Source: Flavobacterium rhamnosiphilum | GTDB taxonomy: Bacteria; Bacteroidota; Bacteroidia; Flavobacteriales; Flavobacteriaceae | Assembly: GCF_004349195.1 (NCBI RefSeq) | Contig: NZ_SMLG01000001.1 | Coordinates: forward strand, 372,001 to 436,000 | Length of the DNA: 64,000 nt | Reading direction: 5' to 3' | Part shown: positions 38,900 through 50,397 of the stretch, piece after piece | How positions within the stretch are numbered: position 1 is the first letter of the stretch | Layout: every line of letters begins with the position of its first letter | Notes under the pieces: generated by a model | The model's input: the letters and a program-made list of their open reading frames with translations, nothing else | Databases searched by the model: none | What the model was told of the DNA's origin: nothing | Translations under genes and position numbers: made by a program

Positions 38900-38927
38900 T
38901 AGTTCCCCCTTCGGGGGTTAGGGGGAT
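38900..38927. repeat. GC-rich hairpin, family F (solo copy 1)
   Basis: tccccct-tcg-gggggttaggggga, directly abutting the lepA stop codon. It is similar to the ends of the element inside addA. It stands out in AT-rich DNA. Confidence 0.5.
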
Positions 38928-40724
38928 TTAATCATTCAACTTCAAAACAGCCATAAACGCTTCTTGTGGAATTTCAACATTTCCAACCAATCTCATACGT
39001 TTTTTACCTTTTTTCTGTTTTTCTAATAATTTACGTTTACGGGAAATATCTCCACCATAACATTTGGCGGTAACGTCTTTACGTAAGGCTTTTATCGTTT
39101 CACGAGAGATTACTTTCACCCCGATAGCAGCTTGAACAGGAATGTCAAATTGTTGACGCGGAATTAATTCTTTCAGTTTCTCACACATTTTTTTACCAAT
39201 CGAATAGGCGTTGTCAGCATGCATCAAAGAGGATAAAGCATCCACAATGGTAGCGTTCAATAAGATATCCACTTTAACCAAATTAGAAGTTCTCATTCCA
39301 ATTGGCGTATAGTCGAAGGAAGCGTAACCTTTAGAAACGGTTTTCAAACGGTCGTAAAAATCAAACACAATCTCTGCCAAAGGCATGTCAAAAGTCAACT
39401 CTACACGTTCCGTAGTCAAATACGTTTGATTGGTAATCAATCCACGTTTTTCGATACACAAACTCATTACATTTCCAACATAATCGGATTTGGTAATGAT
39501 TGTGGCTTTAATAAAAGGTTCTTCAACATGGTCTAAGCGAGATGGCTCCGGCAAGTCAGAAGGATTGTTTACTATAAGTGGTGTTGTAGGATCTTTTTTG
39601 GTGTAAGCCAAATACGAAACGTTGGGAACTGTAGTAATCACAGTCATGTTGAACTCTCTCTCCAAACGCTCCTGAATAATTTCCATGTGTAACATTCCCA
39701 AGAATCCGCAACGGAAACCAAATCCCAAAGCTGCTGAGCTTTCCGGTAAAAACACCAACGAGGCATCATTCAACTGTAATTTTTCCATAGAGTTTCTCAA
39801 CTCTTCATAATCTTCGGTGTCTACAGGATAAATTCCAGCAAAAACCATTGGTTTTACATCTTCAAAACCTTTAATTATATTCGTTGTTGGCGTTTTCGCA
39901 TCCGTCAACGTATCTCCTACTTTTACTTCTTTCGCTTCTTTAATTCCAGAAATTAAATACCCAACGTCACCTGCTGAAATTACTTGTTTCGGAACTTGGT
40001 TTAATTTCAAAGTACCAATTTCATCCGCAAAATATTCATTTCCGGTAGCCATAAATTTAATCTTTTGGCCTTTTTTAATCTGTCCGTTTTTTACACGGAA
40101 AATAACTTCGATTCCTCGAAACGGATTGTAATGCGAGTCAAAAATCAATGCTTGTAAAGGTTCGTCAACATTTCCTGATGGAGGCGGAATTTTTTCGATA
40201 ATGGCTGCCAATATATTTTCTACACCAAAACCAGTTTTACCCGAAGCGTGAATAATATCTTCTAATTTACATCCAAGTAAATCGATAATATCGTCGCTCA
40301 CTTCCTCAGGATTGGCGCTTGGTAAATCTACTTTATTCAAAACCGGAATAATTTCCAAGTCATTCTCCAAAGCCAAATATAAATTCGAAATTGTTTGTGC
40401 CTGGATACTTTGCGCTGCATCTACAATCAAAAGCGCACCTTCACAAGCCGCGATTGAACGAGAAACCTCATACGAAAAATCCACGTGTCCCGGAGTATCA
40501 ATCAAATTCAGGATGTATTCTTGTCCTTTATACGTATATTCCATCTGAATCGCGTGACTCTTAATCGTAATCCCACGTTCACGCTCCAAGTCCATGTTGT
40601 CAAGCAATTGCGCTTTTTCTTCACGAGCAGTTACTGTTTGTGTAGCACCAAGTAATCGGTCAGCAAGCGTGCTTTTCCCATGATCAATATGTGCAATAAT
40701 GCAAAAATTCCTAATATGTTTCAT
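38928..40724 (-). CDS. lepA: elongation factor 4 (LepA)
   Basis: 598 aa. It is a ribosome-binding GTPase similar to EF-G that affects initiation and back-translocation. GTPase motifs are G1 [14 protein letters not shown] (about 10-23), [28 protein letters not shown] (about 77-90), NKVDLP (about 131) and the later SASGKTG-type ASGKTG. The LepA-specific C-terminal end is present: [29 protein letters not shown] (key part [17 protein letters not shown]) and [14 protein letters not shown]. It is a stand-alone minus-strand gene. A family F hairpin abuts its stop and a family B repeat lies upstream of its start. Confidence 0.97.
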
Positions 40725-45234: not shown

Positions 45235-45306
45235 GCTGCAAAAATACTACTTTTAAGTTTTATACGAACAAATTTTAAAAGTAACCTGTTAATAGTTGTG
45301 TTTTTA

Positions 45307-45406
45307 GGAGCTATTTCCTGCTATCCGTTGCAATCTTTTATAAAGCTGGAAGCCTTCAAAAGGCTTTCAGCTTTATAAAAGGATTTTCACTTCTATCAGG
45401 GCTAGG
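45307..45406 (+). repeat. interspersed palindromic repeat, family A (copy 4)
   Basis: Left arm GGAGCTATTTCCTGCTATCC, right arm GATTTTCACTTCTATCAGGG. The interior is a stem of its own (tataaagctg..aagcctt paired with aaggctt..cagctttata). It lies in the 269-base divergent spacer rbfA-addA. Confidence 0.75.
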
Positions 45407-45457
45407 ATATTTGGGAACTATCAAATTCAGATTACAGACAAACTAATTCCGCTTTGT

Positions 45458-45489
45458 CTCCCTTCCCATTGGGGAGGGTTGGGGAGGGG
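45458..45489 (+). repeat. GC-rich hairpin, family F (solo copy 2)
   Basis: ctcccttcccattggggagg followed by gttggggagggg, 15 bases before the addA ATG. Same orientation and near-identical to the right end of the element inside addA (48013-48044). It must be part of the addA leader. Confidence 0.65.
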
Positions 45490-45503
45490 AAAACATAAAA
45501 CTC

Positions 45504-48500
45504 ATGCAAAGACCTTCATTCTCTATATACGACGCCTCGGCCGGATCCGGAAAAACCTATGCGCTTGTCAAAGAATACCTAAAAATTATCCTTGTCGCGC
45601 CAAAAAATGATGCTTATCGGAACATTCTCGCCATTACGTTTACCAACAAAGCGGTACACGAAATGAAAAGCCGAATTGTGGGCAGTCTCTCTGAATTTGC
45701 TAAAGACGAACCAGCGCAAAAAGCACAGGATTTAATGCAGGATTTGGCCATAGATACGGAATTGTCTATTATTCAAATCAAAACCAAGTCACAGCAAATT
45801 ATCAAGCATATTATTCACAATTATGCCGCTTTTGATATTTCTACCATCGATAAATTTACGCATAAAGTGATTCGTGCTTTTGCGCACGATTTGAATTTAC
45901 CCATGACTTTTGAAGTCACATTGGATACTGAAAATTTATTAATTGAAGCCGTCGATGCCATTATTGCCCAAGCCGGAGAAGATGAAACATTAACTAAGCT
46001 GTTAATAGATTTCACGATGGAAAAAACCGATGACGATAAATCTTGGGACATTTCACGAGAGATTCTCGAAACCGGTCGGTTGGTTTTAAACGAAAATAAT
46101 AGAAATGAAATCACTCATTTTCAAGACAAATCCATAGCTGAATTTGTCGAAATAAAAAACAAATTGGCAGAAGCCTGCAAAGTTTTGGAAAAAGAAAGTG
46201 TTGTTTTTGCGGAAGAAGCATTATCATTAATTGATAAAAACGGAATTGACACTAAATCCTTTTCGGCAGGACATTTTCCAAAACATTTGTTGAGTATTCA
46301 AGAAGGAAAATTCAATCCAAAAAATAAAACCTATCACGAATTTGATGATATAAAAATCAATAAAACGGCAAAAGACCGAGCGATTATTGAAAACATTGTC
46401 CCAGATTTATTGCAATTTCTAGATAAAGTTTACAAAACTTTCGAAAAAATAAATTTCTATAAAGCGTTCTTGAAAAACATTACGCCACTATCATTGTTAA
46501 ATACCGTAAGCAATGAATTAGCCAAAATTCAGGAAGAACAAAATGTACTTTCCATTTCCGAATTTAATGCGATTATTCATCGTGAGATTCAAAATCAGCC
46601 AGCACCTTTTATATACGAACGATTGGGCGAGCGCTACCGTCATTTTTTCATTGATGAATTTCAGGATACGTCCGAAATGCAATGGCAGAACCTGATTCCG
46701 CTGATTGACAATGCACTTTCGGGTCAGGATGACTTTGGTGTAAAAGGAACTTTGATGATTGTGGGCGATCCGAAACAATCCATTTACAGATGGCGTGGCG
46801 GAAAAGCGGAACAGTTTATTGAATTGAGTAAAGATCAAAATCCGTTCAATAATCCCGATAAAAAACTCGAACATTTAGATAAAAATTACCGTTCTTATTC
46901 TCAGATAATCGAATTCAATAATGATTTTTTTAAATTGTTGTCTAATGAATTTGAGCATTTGGATTATAAAGATTTGTATGAAAATCACAGCCATCAAAAA
47001 ACCAATGATAAAACTGGTGGTTATGTAAATATTTCATTCATTCCAAAAGTAGAAACTTCAGAAGAAGATGAAGAAATGTTGGATAAAACGGATTTATATG
47101 TCTTAGCGACTTTAAATACCATTCAAAAATCCGTTCAAAAAGGCTTTCAATACAAAGATATTGTGATTCTGACTAGAAAACGAGACCAAGGAATTGCAAT
47201 TGCTAATTATTTGACGGAGCAAGGGATTCCACTTTTGTCATCGGAAACATTAATGATTCAAAATGCCACCGAAGTCCGATTGATTATTCATTTATTAAAA
47301 TACCTGAAAAACAGTTCTGATTTGGAATCCAAAGCAAATTTTCTTCAATATTTAGCACAAAACAGTCAGGATAAATTACCGATTCACGATTTTATTGCCC
47401 AAGGAATGGCGTTATTTCAGGAAACTGATTTCGAAAATTGGCTGATGAGTTTCGATGTTTCGCTTTCGTTTCAAAACATTAGGAAAAAATCTTTGTATGA
47501 GGCGGTTGAAACTATAATAGCAAAATTCCTCTCCCCAGCCCTCTCCAAAGGAAAGGGTGGCGGTGTGTTTAATCGTGTGGATAAAAATGACCTTATTGAA
47601 TCAGATAAATTAGGGTACATGACAGGCGGAAATTATTCTCATCTTTTAATTGAAAAAGCAAAAGAGATGCGAAAAGAGCCAACACATGCTGAAAAAATTC
47701 TTTGGATGGAGCTTAAATCTAAATCACTAGAAGATTATAAATTCAGGCAACAACATTTGATAGATGATTTTATTGTTGATTTTGTTTGTTTGTCAAAAAA
47801 ATTGGTTGTTGAAGTTGATGGCGATTATCATTTTGCTGAAGAACAAGTTCAGTTAGATAATAATAGAACAATTACTCTAAATAAATTAGGATATAAAGTT
47901 ATTCGATTTACAAATGAGCAAGTTACAAAGAACATTTCAGAGGTTTTAAAAAGAATACAAGAAGAATTAATTCTACAAGAAATTTTTCTAAATTCCAGTT
48001 CTCCAGTTATGGCTCCCTCCCCTTCGGGGAGGGTCGGGGAGGGGAATGCCTACGTTCAATATTTTCTAGATATTGTTTTAGAACGAGACATTCGCAACCA
48101 AGCAGGGATTTCGGACTTCTTAAATTTCTGGGATAAAAATGCGGAGAAATTCAGTATTCCATCTCCGGAAGGGACTAATGCAGTTCGGATTATGACGATT
48201 CATAAGTCGAAAGGATTGGAATTTCCGGTTGTGATTTTTCCTTTTGCCGAGGAAGATTACAACAGAAAACCCAAAGATAAATTATGGCTTAATGCAGAGG
48301 AACAGGATTTTGGTTTGCCTAAGGTTTTAATCGACAACAGCAGTGCGGTGGAAGGATTTGGAGAAGAAGCCGCTGAGGTTTACAATCAAAAGAAACAGGA
48401 AGAATTATTGGATAACATCAATGTTTTGTATGTGGCTTTGACCCGAGCTGAAGAGCAGTTGTATGTGATTTCGAACATGAATTTATCCAGTAAAGGCGAA

Positions 48501-49154
48501 ATTCCAAAAAATAATATGTGTAGCTTTTTTATTAATTATTTGGGTAATAAAGGCGAATTTGATGAAAATAAATTGGAGTATGAATTTGGAAATGCAACGA
48601 AATTATCTTCAGAGAAACAGCACGTAGATACTTCAAAAACGATTCCTTTGGTTGCAGAAATTCTAAATCCTAAGAATATAAAAATTGCGCAACGGGAAGC
48701 ATTAATGTGGGGAACGCACCAGCAGGAGGCTATAGAATACGGAAATGTGATTCACGAAATTCTATCTTTCATAAAAACAAAAGCTGATGTGGATTTAGCA
48801 ATTACAAAATCTATCGAGAGCGGATTAATCACTTTTAGCCAAAAAGAAACAGTTTTTAAAACTATTCAGGAAATTGTTAATCATAGTGAACTTTCAACTT
48901 ATTTTTCTGAGGGAAATGAAATTATGAATGAACAAACCATCATTCAGAAAGAAGGAAAAACAATCAAACCAGACCGAATGGTTGTGACCAAAGAAAAAGA
49001 CGTGTTTCTGTTAGATTATAAAACAGGAATTCACAATTCAAAATACCAATTGCAATTAGAGAATTATCAACATGCGATTGAATTAATGGGATTTAAAGTG
49101 GTAAAAAAAGCACTAGTATATATAGGTTTGTCAATCGATGTAGTACATTTGTAG
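45504..49154 (+). CDS. addA: AddA/RecB-type helicase-nuclease subunit, interrupted in frame by a DUF559 domain
   Basis: 1216 aa. It processes double-strand DNA ends for recombinational repair together with AddB (52030). UvrD-type helicase motifs are SAGSGKTYALVKEY (about 10-23), ILAITFTNKAVHEMKSR, FIDEFQDTSEMQW (about 384-396), VGDPKQSIYRWRGGKAEQF, LDKNYRS, MTIHKSKGLEFPVVIF (about 895-910) and LYVALTRAEEQLYV (about 974-987). The C-terminal PD-(D/E)XK nuclease has DRMVV and FLLDYKTG (Asp1171, Lys1173). Residues about 675-847 do not belong: they form a complete DUF559 domain with flanking repeat-encoded peptides (LSPALSKGKGGG and PSPSGRVGEG). Without them the protein would have about 1045 residues, normal for flavobacteria. 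The frame is open throughout, so the protein may be functional with an extra domain between helicase motifs IV and V. Confidence 0.9.
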   Translation: MQRPSFSIYDASAGSGKTYALVKEYLKIILVAPKNDAYRNILAITFTNKAVHEMKSRIVGSLSEFAKDEPAQKAQDLMQDLAIDTELSIIQIKTKSQQIIKHIIHNYAAFDISTIDKFTHKVIRAFAHDLNLPMTFEVTLDTENLLIEAVDAIIAQAGEDETLTKLLIDFTMEKTDDDKSWDISREILETGRLVLNENNRNEITHFQDKSIAEFVEIKNKLAEACKVLEKESVVFAEEALSLIDKNGIDTKSFSAGHFPKHLLSIQEGKFNPKNKTYHEFDDIKINKTAKDRAIIENIVPDLLQFLDKVYKTFEKINFYKAFLKNITPLSLLNTVSNELAKIQEEQNVLSISEFNAIIHREIQNQPAPFIYERLGERYRHFFIDEFQDTSEMQWQNLIPLIDNALSGQDDFGVKGTLMIVGDPKQSIYRWRGGKAEQFIELSKDQNPFNNPDKKLEHLDKNYRSYSQIIEFNNDFFKLLSNEFEHLDYKDLYENHSHQKTNDKTGGYVNISFIPKVETSEEDEEMLDKTDLYVLATLNTIQKSVQKGFQYKDIVILTRKRDQGIAIANYLTEQGIPLLSSETLMIQNATEVRLIIHLLKYLKNSSDLESKANFLQYLAQNSQDKLPIHDFIAQGMALFQETDFENWLMSFDVSLSFQNIRKKSLYEAVETIIAKFLSPALSKGKGGGVFNRVDKNDLIESDKLGYMTGGNYSHLLIEKAKEMRKEPTHAEKILWMELKSKSLEDYKFRQQHLIDDFIVDFVCLSKKLVVEVDGDYHFAEEQVQLDNNRTITLNKLGYKVIRFTNEQVTKNISEVLKRIQEELILQEIFLNSSSPVMAPSPSGRVGEGNAYVQYFLDIVLERDIRNQAGISDFLNFWDKNAEKFSIPSPEGTNAVRIMTIHKSKGLEFPVVIFPFAEEDYNRKPKDKLWLNAEEQDFGLPKVLIDNSSAVEGFGEEAAEVYNQKKQEELLDNINVLYVALTRAEEQLYVISNMNLSSKGEIPKNNMCSFFINYLGNKGEFDENKLEYEFGNATKLSSEKQHVDTSKTIPLVAEILNPKNIKIAQREALMWGTHQQEAIEYGNVIHEILSFIKTKADVDLAITKSIESGLITFSQKETVFKTIQEIVNHSELSTYFSEGNEIMNEQTIIQKEGKTIKPDRMVVTKEKDVFLLDYKTGIHNSKYQLQLENYQHAIELMGFKVVKKALVYIGLSIDVVHL
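47528..48044 (+). mobile_element. DUF559 nuclease-like element with GC-rich inverted ends (family F), inserted in addA
   Basis: About 517 bases. The left end (47528-47560, cctctccccagccctctcc...) is the reverse complement of the right end (48013-48044, ctccctccccttcggggagg...) at 23 of 30 aligned positions, and each end is itself a hairpin. The interior reads in the addA frame and encodes a DUF559 (Vsr-like, PD-(D/E)XK-type) domain from about Met706: HAEKILWMELKSKSL, YKFRQQHLIDDFIVDFVC with Asp759, KLVVEVDGDYHF with Glu770, Asp772 and His776, then LGYKVIRFTNEQV. All expected active-site residues are present. There is no stop before addA resumes at NAYVQYFLDIVLE. Ends are approximate by a few bases. 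Confidence 0.75.
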
Positions 49155-49163
49155 CCAAAAACT

Positions 49164-49203
49164 AAAAACTAAAAACTTTAAACCTTAAACTTTTAACAAA
49201 ATT
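49164..49203 (+). repeat. A/T-rich word repeat before kbl
   Basis: Runs of aaaaact and aaactt-type words between addA and kbl. It resembles the tract beside sod (28137-28162). No other feature is seen in the 49-base spacer. Confidence 0.3.
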
Positions 49204-50397
49204 ATGTACGGGAAAATACAACAACATCTGCAGTCAGAACTTCAAACGATTGTAGACAACGGAATTTTTAAATCAGAAAGAATTATCACTTCACCACAAG
49301 GAGCAGAAATCACTATTTCTACAGGAGAAACGGTTTTGAATTTTTGTGCCAATAACTATCTGGGGTTGTCTTCGCATCCAGAGGTGATTCAGGCAGCAAA
49401 AGATGCTTTGGATACACATGGTTTCGGAATGTCATCAGTACGTTTTATTTGTGGAACTCAGGATATTCATAAAACATTGGAGAAAAAGATTTCTGAATTT
49501 TACGGGACAGAAGACACGATTCTTTATGCTGCAGCATTTGATGCGAATGGAGGGGTTTTCGAGCCGTTATTAGGAGATCAAGATTGCATTATTTCTGACA
49601 GTTTGAATCATGCTTCCATTATTGATGGGGTTCGTTTGTGTAAAGCAGCACGTTATCGTTATGAAAATAGCAATATGGAAGATTTAGAAAAGCAGTTGAT
49701 TAAGGCTACAGAAGCTGGAACTCGTTTTAAATTAATTGTTACGGACGGTGTTTTCTCTATGGATGGGGTTGTAGCGCCATTAGATAAAATTTGTGATTTA
49801 GCTGATAAATATGATGCTATGGTCATGGTTGATGAATGTCATGCTGCTGGATTTATTGGTGCAACCGGAAAAGGGACGCTCGAGGCAAAAGGTGTGATGG
49901 GAAGAGTAGATATCATTACAGGAACATTAGGGAAAGCGCTTGGTGGTGCTATGGGTGGTTATACTACTGCCAAAAAAGAAATTATCGAAATATTGCGTCA
50001 ACGTTCCAGACCTTATTTGTTTTCAAATTCATTGGCGCCTGCTATTGTTGGAGCTTCCATAAAAGTTTTTGAAATATTAGATAGAGATACCGTTTTACGT
50101 GATAAATTAGAATGGAATACGAATTATTTCAAGGAAGGAATGAAAAAAGCTGGTTTTGATATCATTGATGGTGATTCGGCAATCGTTCCTGTCATGTTGT
50201 ATGATGCTAAATTATCTCAGACTATGGCAAATGAGTTGTTGAAAAAGGGAATTTATGTCATAGGATTCTTTTTTCCAGTGGTGCCAAAAGATAAAGCTAG
50301 GATTAGAGTGCAATTATCGGCAGCTCACACAAAAGGCCATTTAGACAAGGCTATCAGTGCTTTTGTTGAAGTTGGGAGAATGTTAAATGTTGTATAA
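49204..50397 (+). CDS. kbl: glycine C-acetyltransferase (2-amino-3-ketobutyrate CoA ligase)
   Basis: 397 aa. This PLP enzyme of the alpha-oxoamine synthase family cleaves 2-amino-3-ketobutyrate with CoA into glycine and acetyl-CoA in threonine breakdown. Motifs: NFCANNYLGLSSHPEV (about 46-61), GFGMSSVRFICGTQ, DSLNHASIIDGVRL (His stacking on PLP, about 136), VDECHAAGFIGATGKG (Asp holding the pyridine N, about 209) and the PLP-Lys in GTLGKALGGAMGG (about 243). Close relatives (KAS, ALAS, BioF) share these, but the KBL-specific start and the overall length favour kbl. No threonine dehydrogenase gene is adjacent. Confidence 0.9.
   Translation: MYGKIQQHLQSELQTIVDNGIFKSERIITSPQGAEITISTGETVLNFCANNYLGLSSHPEVIQAAKDALDTHGFGMSSVRFICGTQDIHKTLEKKISEFYGTEDTILYAAAFDANGGVFEPLLGDQDCIISDSLNHASIIDGVRLCKAARYRYENSNMEDLEKQLIKATEAGTRFKLIVTDGVFSMDGVVAPLDKICDLADKYDAMVMVDECHAAGFIGATGKGTLEAKGVMGRVDIITGTLGKALGGAMGGYTTAKKEIIEILRQRSRPYLFSNSLAPAIVGASIKVFEILDRDTVLRDKLEWNTNYFKEGMKKAGFDIIDGDSAIVPVMLYDAKLSQTMANELLKKGIYVIGFFFPVVPKDKARIRVQLSAAHTKGHLDKAISAFVEVGRMLNVV

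Follow-up and report, generated by a model that had tools for sequence, protein, structure and literature searches.

A hairpin-ended DUF559 nuclease element lies in frame, without signs of splicing, in addA and other conserved genes of Bacteroidota

Inteins that carry a homing endonuclease lie in frame in conserved proteins, have nuclease lineages particular to each site, are patchily distributed and enter the same site horizontally. The element described here, found in the helicase gene addA of Flavobacterium rhamnosiphilum, has the same in-frame state, site lineages, patchiness and same-site entry. Inteins splice out, whereas the element has neither a splicing domain nor junction residues, and its segment is read as retained in the protein. 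The Rickettsia palindromic elements (RPE) are palindromic repeats of about 150 bp (PMC10969869) that lie in frame in protein-coding genes (PMC10969869, PMC3733652); no nuclease is mentioned in the accessible parts of these two papers. To the extent that these sources describe RPE, the element resembles them in its palindromic repeats and in-frame position in genes, but differs in its length (517 nt), its nuclease, its phylum, its site-following lineages and its traces of movement without the host gene, a comparison made on these descriptions and not on RPE sequences. EDxHD enzymes are long multi-domain proteins, according to the part of the source available (PMC3943268). With one EDxHD/Vsr-like enzyme, I-Bth0305I, the element has nuclease sequence and fold in common; its structure, 3r3p, is labelled as a mobile intron protein, whereas the element is a bare 106-aa domain translated within the host. 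The likeness to REP sequences and MITEs lies in GC-rich hairpin-plus-tail repeats that occur solo and paired, with 15 matches in the genome; unlike these, the element carries a nuclease and lies in frame in genes, and no GTAG tag was seen by eye in its ends. The free-standing DUF559 protein 3hrl (NGO0050) belongs to the same family and is the nearest structure to the element nuclease, although most in-gene copies form a separate branch (support 96*). We found no description of in-frame DUF559 elements among the titles and abstracts listed in searches of the open literature, which is weak evidence of novelty, as subscription papers and preprints were mostly outside the search. The reading that we consider likely is that the unit belongs to a group of mobile elements widespread in Bacteroidota, in frame in conserved genes and unspliced, with hairpin ends on either side of a Vsr/I-Bth0305I-like DUF559 nuclease; that it homes is inferred.

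The features of the locus are listed below, with positions counted along the window, the 64,000-nt stretch of DNA that was analysed.

45504-49154, plus strand: addA, a RecB-like helicase of the UvrD family and host of the element; a single open frame of 1216 aa
47528-48044, plus strand: the entire 517-nt element, in frame; relative to the empty gene of G010, between codons TTC (F) and AAT (N)
47528-47557, minus strand: left end, outward-reading, with a C-rich tail (47528-47536), the spacer AG and an imperfect hairpin (47539-47557)
47539-47557: the left-end hairpin, CCCTCTCC-AAA-GGAAAGGG, imperfect
47652-47969, plus strand: DUF559 nuclease domain (PF04480), AddA residues 717-822, with the E/D/E/D/H/D columns all there
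48015-48044, plus strand: right end, with a perfect hairpin (48015-48033), the spacer TC and a G-rich tail (48036-48044)
48015-48033: the right-end hairpin, CCCTCCCC-TTC-GGGGAGGG, perfect, 8 bp
45460-45489, plus strand: solo copy of the end, hairpin and tail, 14 nt 5' of the addA ATG (45504)
38903-38929, plus strand: solo end adjoining lepA, of the C5/G5 hairpin family (the type of the LeuS and MetH sites)

The original prediction placed a complete DUF559 domain in frame within AddA, and the Pfam match at the residues listed, in an uninterrupted frame, agrees with it (117.3 bits against a curated cut-off of 20.6; E 3.7e-34). The segment is nested within a UvrD_C match (AddA residues 457-991, Pfam). 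The predicted Asp/Glu/Asp/His pattern is also intact: across an alignment of 67 domains (66 in-gene and one free-standing, selected from the window and 80 loci), E31, D60, E71, D73, H77 and D86 never vary, and some of these residues are presumed to be catalytic. The tails are CCTCTCCCC at the left end and GGGGAGGGG at the right. The end motif, at up to three mismatches, occurs three times in the window, at both element ends and in the solo copy before addA (match at 45471-45489), against a mean of 0.00 in 100 shuffled windows. GC-rich hairpins thus do flank the element; they had been called inverted copies of each other, which is true only of similar and inexact copies, the left end having three mismatches. 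Both predicted solo ends exist, but the one beside lepA belongs to another end family and lies outside the pattern of the AddA ends.

The 15 matches in this organism's own genome were to the right end at up to three mismatches; the reversed pattern gave none there at the same threshold. Four solo ends in this genome (L013, L014, L017, L018) lie from a few to about 20 codons 5' of the start codons of unrelated genes, much like the solo copy at addA, and another, L008, is more distant from its start codon. Elsewhere in the genome (L004, C7:13534-13892) an outward-facing end pair lies about 300 nt apart with no DUF559 match between. An Rfam Flavo-1 RNA (RF01705, 74.5 bits) is located shortly 5' of addA, at 45310-45407 on the minus strand.

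We surveyed 101 Flavobacterium genomes and found addA in 98, of which six carry DUF559 in it, in frames of 1210-1286 aa. The same domain at the same place in all flavobacterial AddA proteins, which would have refuted the original prediction, is therefore not what is seen. The 30 closest addA genes were retrieved and their sites read (29 parsed by motif, L041 by eye); the other 68 were judged only from frame length and the positions of DUF559 matches, the site in G028 lies past the contig end and several other frames are incomplete. All six occupied genes have the domain at a single site, between KF(L/I) and NAYVQ, where the unoccupied genes among the 30 have a short variable linker. In the empty relative G010 this linker is 18 nt long, and the next 143 residues are 99% identical to the window AddA. 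Three further sites look, by eye, like remains or in-frame scars of the element: in G070 most of the left end is fused to the final bases of the right end, G045 has a degenerate end pair, and in G056 two hairpin ends are separated by only a short sequence that contains no nuclease. A tree of the 30 genes built from downstream DNA requires five changes to explain the six occupied genes (4-6 in bootstraps; mean of 5.7 after shuffling), and occupation is thus scattered among the AddA lineages. Judged by these sequences, DUF559 is not an old or native AddA domain. At both AddA and MetH the element replaces a short variable linker. Comparison of relatives thus provided the empty sites that had been called for, but no clear target-site duplication at AddA or MetH against empty sites, where the linkers are too variable for certainty.

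AddA does host the element, as predicted, but the accommodation is not peculiar to it, as nine other hosts, large proteins and mostly housekeeping ones, can be named. On the question whether DUF559 frames are usually free-standing or inside genes, the 101 Flavobacterium genomes have 55 full-length matches (E up to 1.3e-21): for 31 of them the surrounding open frame is 597-1386 aa long, and for the other 24 it is 99-180 aa. Across the phylum Bacteroidota a DUF559 match is present in 222 of 395 genomes, a survey whose individual matches are only partly itemised. Scanning the genome_contigs collection with five in-gene domains matched at least 589 stretches, at least 567 of them relatives. Among the best 80 of these, 79 lie in frames of at least 485 aa (some ended by a contig edge) and one, L167, is free-standing; this sample leans towards in-gene copies because the query domains were in-gene. 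Because a long open frame was the criterion for an in-gene copy, broken copies would be overlooked.

One example of each of ten other host frames was scored against NCBIfam and Pfam host models. Seven (LeuS, IleS, ValS, MetH, RecG, PurL and HsdR) exceed the curated NCBIfam cut-off despite the insert, two match Pfam host domains (an epimerase and a family 2 glycosidase), and for the tenth, L080, DUF559 is the sole match in both libraries. In the sorting of 145 domains by host, 25 are free-standing and six have no assignment; the labels of the remaining host loci rest on sequence motifs that we chose. MetH and IleS have two sites each. Two DUF559 domains at different sites of one host gene are seen in L071 (LeuS of G016, in a frame of 1386 aa) and L184 (IleS). 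At the loci L078, L079, L080 and L083, which form a separate nuclease branch, DUF559 has ends of the PSPSGRG type and lies in longer frames that on inspection partly resemble restriction-modification systems. In two LeuS genes of Sphingobacteriales (L128, L131), short in-frame repeats of the PPQPPEGG...DTPPSGAGG type are stacked around the nuclease and resemble nuclease-free copies, nested or in tandem. Phages and plasmids were considered as vehicles and rejected: DUF559 relatives occur in three phage and 40 plasmid records (15 of the 40 plasmid matches itemised), all below 60% identity.

MetH was found in 92 of the 101 genomes (in G074 at only 27% identity), ten of which have the domain at site A; in the 30 loci read, the empty linker is like IEAQKDGKSSSAGK and the occupied site reads IEAxK[...]AGK. 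LeuS was found in 96 of the 101, with an adjoining DUF559 match in seven (30 loci read). The LeuS gene of this organism's own genome (L007/L221, C11:513.4 kb) has both GC ends in frame with about 30 aa between and no nuclease, and looks like a fossil of the element. In element-free strains (L222, L228, L232, L234, L239, L240, L245, L247) the LeuS loop before FTTRPDT holds other in-frame sequences that resemble repeats: a CATTGCGAGC...GAAGCAATC palindrome, AAAGTCGAAAGTC-like tandems and CCAACTT tandems. From its sequence, this loop looks like a general landing pad.

The DUF559 model (pLDDT 86.6) has its best structural matches in 3hrl and the catalytic domain of I-Bth0305I, with Vsr lower. The element nuclease is thus related in both sequence profile (E 4.3e-6) and fold (Foldseek E 2.3e-5, against 3r3p) to a characterised homing endonuclease. 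No DNA-binding module is attached to the 106 aa of the domain, which leaves target specificity unexplained. An AlphaFold model of AddA 450-1010 from 16 sequences was poor (mean pLDDT 45.8, with only the DUF559 part at 61-91), and we therefore make no claim on how the domain is seated on the helicase. Median dN/dS of the nuclease is 0.10 for AddA (44 usable of 187 pairs), 0.175 for LeuS (62 of 1079), 0.216 for MetH site A (six usable pairs) and 0.124 for RecG (two pairs), and the host-part medians are 0.050-0.136. These substitution patterns indicate that the element nuclease is under purifying selection.

A quick-search tree was made of 140 nuclease domains over 106 columns, and 66 of its 137 inner branches are unresolved. 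Copies group by insertion site across genera, with 15 changes over 14 groups against a minimum of 13 and a shuffled mean of 86.9. The AddA copies form one clade (99*), as do the RecG copies of Flavobacterium, Tenacibaculum, Croceitalea and Polaribacter (96*), the HsdR copies and the epimerase copies (100* each); LeuS needs three changes, MetH site A three and IleS site 1 five. The branch of in-gene copies (96*) has 109 members: 107 in-gene rows, one free-standing copy and a LeuS copy from the second site. Not included in it are HsdR and four further in-gene copies. The nuclease phylogeny largely follows the insertion site, as for inteins. The AddA clade groups with Flavobacterium-type LeuS copies at an SH-aLRT of only 85, and the AddA copies may stem from one jump from LeuS to AddA. 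Of nine nuclease splits at or above 95, five are incompatible with one or more host splits that also reach 95, which is weak support. An AU test strongly rejected the nuclease data on the LeuS host tree (delta lnL 272); we discarded it as evidence because, of four control windows of the same size taken from the host, three met with rejection too (delta lnL 114-208), the fourth having no second tree.

If the ends were absent around other DUF559 genes, the original prediction would fail. We searched 115 different in-gene copies for a GC hairpin within 180 nt, using the union of a strict and a lenient definition drawn up after the ends had been seen. Of these copies, 81 have a left hairpin, 99 a right one and 74 have both. 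Windows shifted by 300, 600, 900 and 1200 nt have both-side hairpins in 0/112, 0/108, 0/106 and 3/103 cases (0/326 pooled over 300-900 nt). Many other in-gene copies thus have such ends, and the refuting condition does not hold. The strict definition alone gives 34/115 (controls 0/112 at a shift of 400 and 0/106 at 800), and the lenient one 48/115 (with the same 300-1200 nt controls as the union). Free-standing copies have hairpins on both sides in 11/24 cases (control 2/22 at a shift of 300). Among AddA copies the left hairpin is found in only 6/17, the left end being often imperfect. Direct scoring of left-right inverted repeats was only partly positive (p<=0.02 in 59/120 in-gene copies, with 6/20 for AddA, and in 8/24 free-standing copies), and for this reason the hairpin counts with shifted controls were adopted.

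The right hairpin is translated in differing frames at differing sites. Over the 10-13 codons of the right end, aligned without gaps, the differences at third versus first and second positions are 0.162/0.124 for AddA, 0.332/0.276 for MetH site A, 0.484/0.346 for RecG and 0.604/0.519 for LeuS. Because these positions vary about equally, unlike those of host codons (0.379/0.038 in AddA, 0.558/0.220 in LeuS), the ends seem to evolve as DNA and not as protein. We rejected the idea that they are specially stop-free: the fraction of windows with all six frames open is 0.31 at the ends, 0.12 in the GC-richest host sequence and 0.04 in host sequence at large, an effect mostly of GC content. The ends are REP-like hairpin-plus-tail repeats only loosely common between sites. 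The notion of an intein-like or REP-type parasite without splicing thus keeps its intein-like, non-splicing character and its REP-like ends, but not a single set of ends.

With such ends, the element could instead be a REP/MITE pair in which the nuclease is a passenger, new sites being reached through a transposase in trans (e.g. Y1/RAYT) and the same site through homologous recombination. The solo ends and the nuclease-free pair in this genome, a short two-ended insert without nuclease at the L034 AddA site and three Y1_Tnp matches in the genome all speak for this explanation. No end motif lies within about 3.2-3.3 kb around those matches (L108, L109, L110), however, whose RAYT identity is undetermined; the nuclease keeps its invariant columns and purifying selection, which is not required of a passenger, and its clades track the insertion site. 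We regard a passenger nuclease as possible but unlikely.

The reading of the unit as a mobile element in its own right is supported by pairs in which the element moved without its host. In two Dokdonia assemblies, third positions differ at 3/103 in the domain versus 288/877 (33%) in LeuS (Fisher 4e-13), and the limits of the near identity coincide, to about ten bases, with those of the element. Because the switch in divergence falls at the ends, the sequences show that the unit moved by itself and that it entered the identical site of a different species. This pair, the strongest, derives from assemblies of uncultured organisms' DNA, whereas named strains provide the weaker pairs of Psychroflexus and Tenacibaculum. 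The Psychroflexus pair (L147/L153) differs at 8/104 third positions in the element versus 263/907 in the host, with about 27 nt of left host flank also identical, at most a weak hint of co-conversion. Two Tenacibaculum RecG genes differ at 13/105 versus 187/646, and L145/L150 at 13/103 versus 192/597. Overall, the element is significantly closer than the host in nine of 456 unsaturated same-site pairs (p<1e-3, uncorrected), against 0/205 for control host windows of similar size; the 456 pairs overlap in members, and L082 and L153, with identical counts, look like one sequence, leaving eight distinct cases. In 446 of the 456 there is no significant difference between element and host, and one pair (L075/L142) is reversed, with close LeuS genes, elements of different lineages and the element more distant. 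Most copies may have been inherited vertically, or are unresolved. The proposal of a small mobile unit is therefore supported as far as movement of the element alone goes, and mobilisation by the nuclease remains an inference.

Reuse of a site need not mean site-directed homing. Insertion could be random with survival only in permissive loops, a reading favoured by the other repeat-like sequences in the LeuS loop of element-free strains and by the fact that the sites read appear to be linkers or loops. It predicts nuclease lineages mixed between sites, of which little is seen (15 changes for a minimum of 13), and recent transfers have hit the identical site; we consider it improbable. Alternatively, DUF559 could be a useful accessory domain, a repair nuclease in AddA and RecG or a defence function, inherited vertically and lost. 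A nuclease is plausible in a repair helicase, and purifying selection and the single AddA clade fit. Yet the same domain is also in LeuS, IleS, ValS, MetH and PurL, it is absent from most relatives and scattered on the AddA tree, and the element alone moves between species. This explanation is already strained, and we judge it very unlikely.

The expectation of an unspliced insert is borne out by sequence. Neither in AddA nor in the ten further host frames scanned with Pfam is there an intein or Hint splicing domain, the Cys/Ser start and His-Asn end of inteins were not found at the junctions read by eye, and an Rfam search for introns over 45300-49300 returned none, its only match, the Flavo-1 RNA, lying beyond the element. 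That the insert is an intein or intron of an unusual kind, removed from protein or RNA, can hardly be credited: its host genes, site-following lineages and homing-type nuclease are all intein-like, but no intein family, junction residues or intron was detected in these searches, and the frame is maintained throughout. Because the splicing parts were sought and not found, we do not claim that the element is an intein; we would place it among the homing endonucleases only once cutting had been demonstrated.

Returning to the unspliced mobile element, we suggest how it may persist and spread. The ends are translated as Pro/Gly/Ser-rich linkers, by which the nuclease may be tethered to a loop or interdomain linker that tolerates it, host and nuclease folding separately. 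The host-nuclease fusion, or a fragment of it, would then cut element-free alleles met after DNA exchange, and repair would copy the element into the cut allele, which amounts to homing; there is no cleavage or homing assay behind either inferred step. Later, the nuclease could be lost by in-frame internal deletion, and rare jumps may establish new sites, perhaps that in AddA from a LeuS-type lineage, for which the support is the SH-aLRT value given above. Sequence comparison bears out the in-frame state, patchiness, empty sites, scar-like remnants, site lineages, selection, invariant columns and element-only transfer. That the nuclease drives homing is inferred and not shown, and gene conversion without a nuclease could move the element as well. 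Whether these elements are a separate class, non-splicing parasites of essential genes with a loop-borne domain, ends that are at once DNA repeats and flexible linkers, and spread by homing, is a proposition that we hold to be evenly balanced.

These observations describe a homing-type nuclease in conserved and partly essential genes of many genera, with no sign of splicing and with direct traces of movement. They suggest a biology for DUF559 and account for the oddly long AddA, LeuS, MetH, IleS and RecG proteins of some Bacteroidota. The occupied genes amount to a natural record of positions at which an extra domain of about 150 aa is tolerated, and the ends show REP-like repeats serving as protein linkers.
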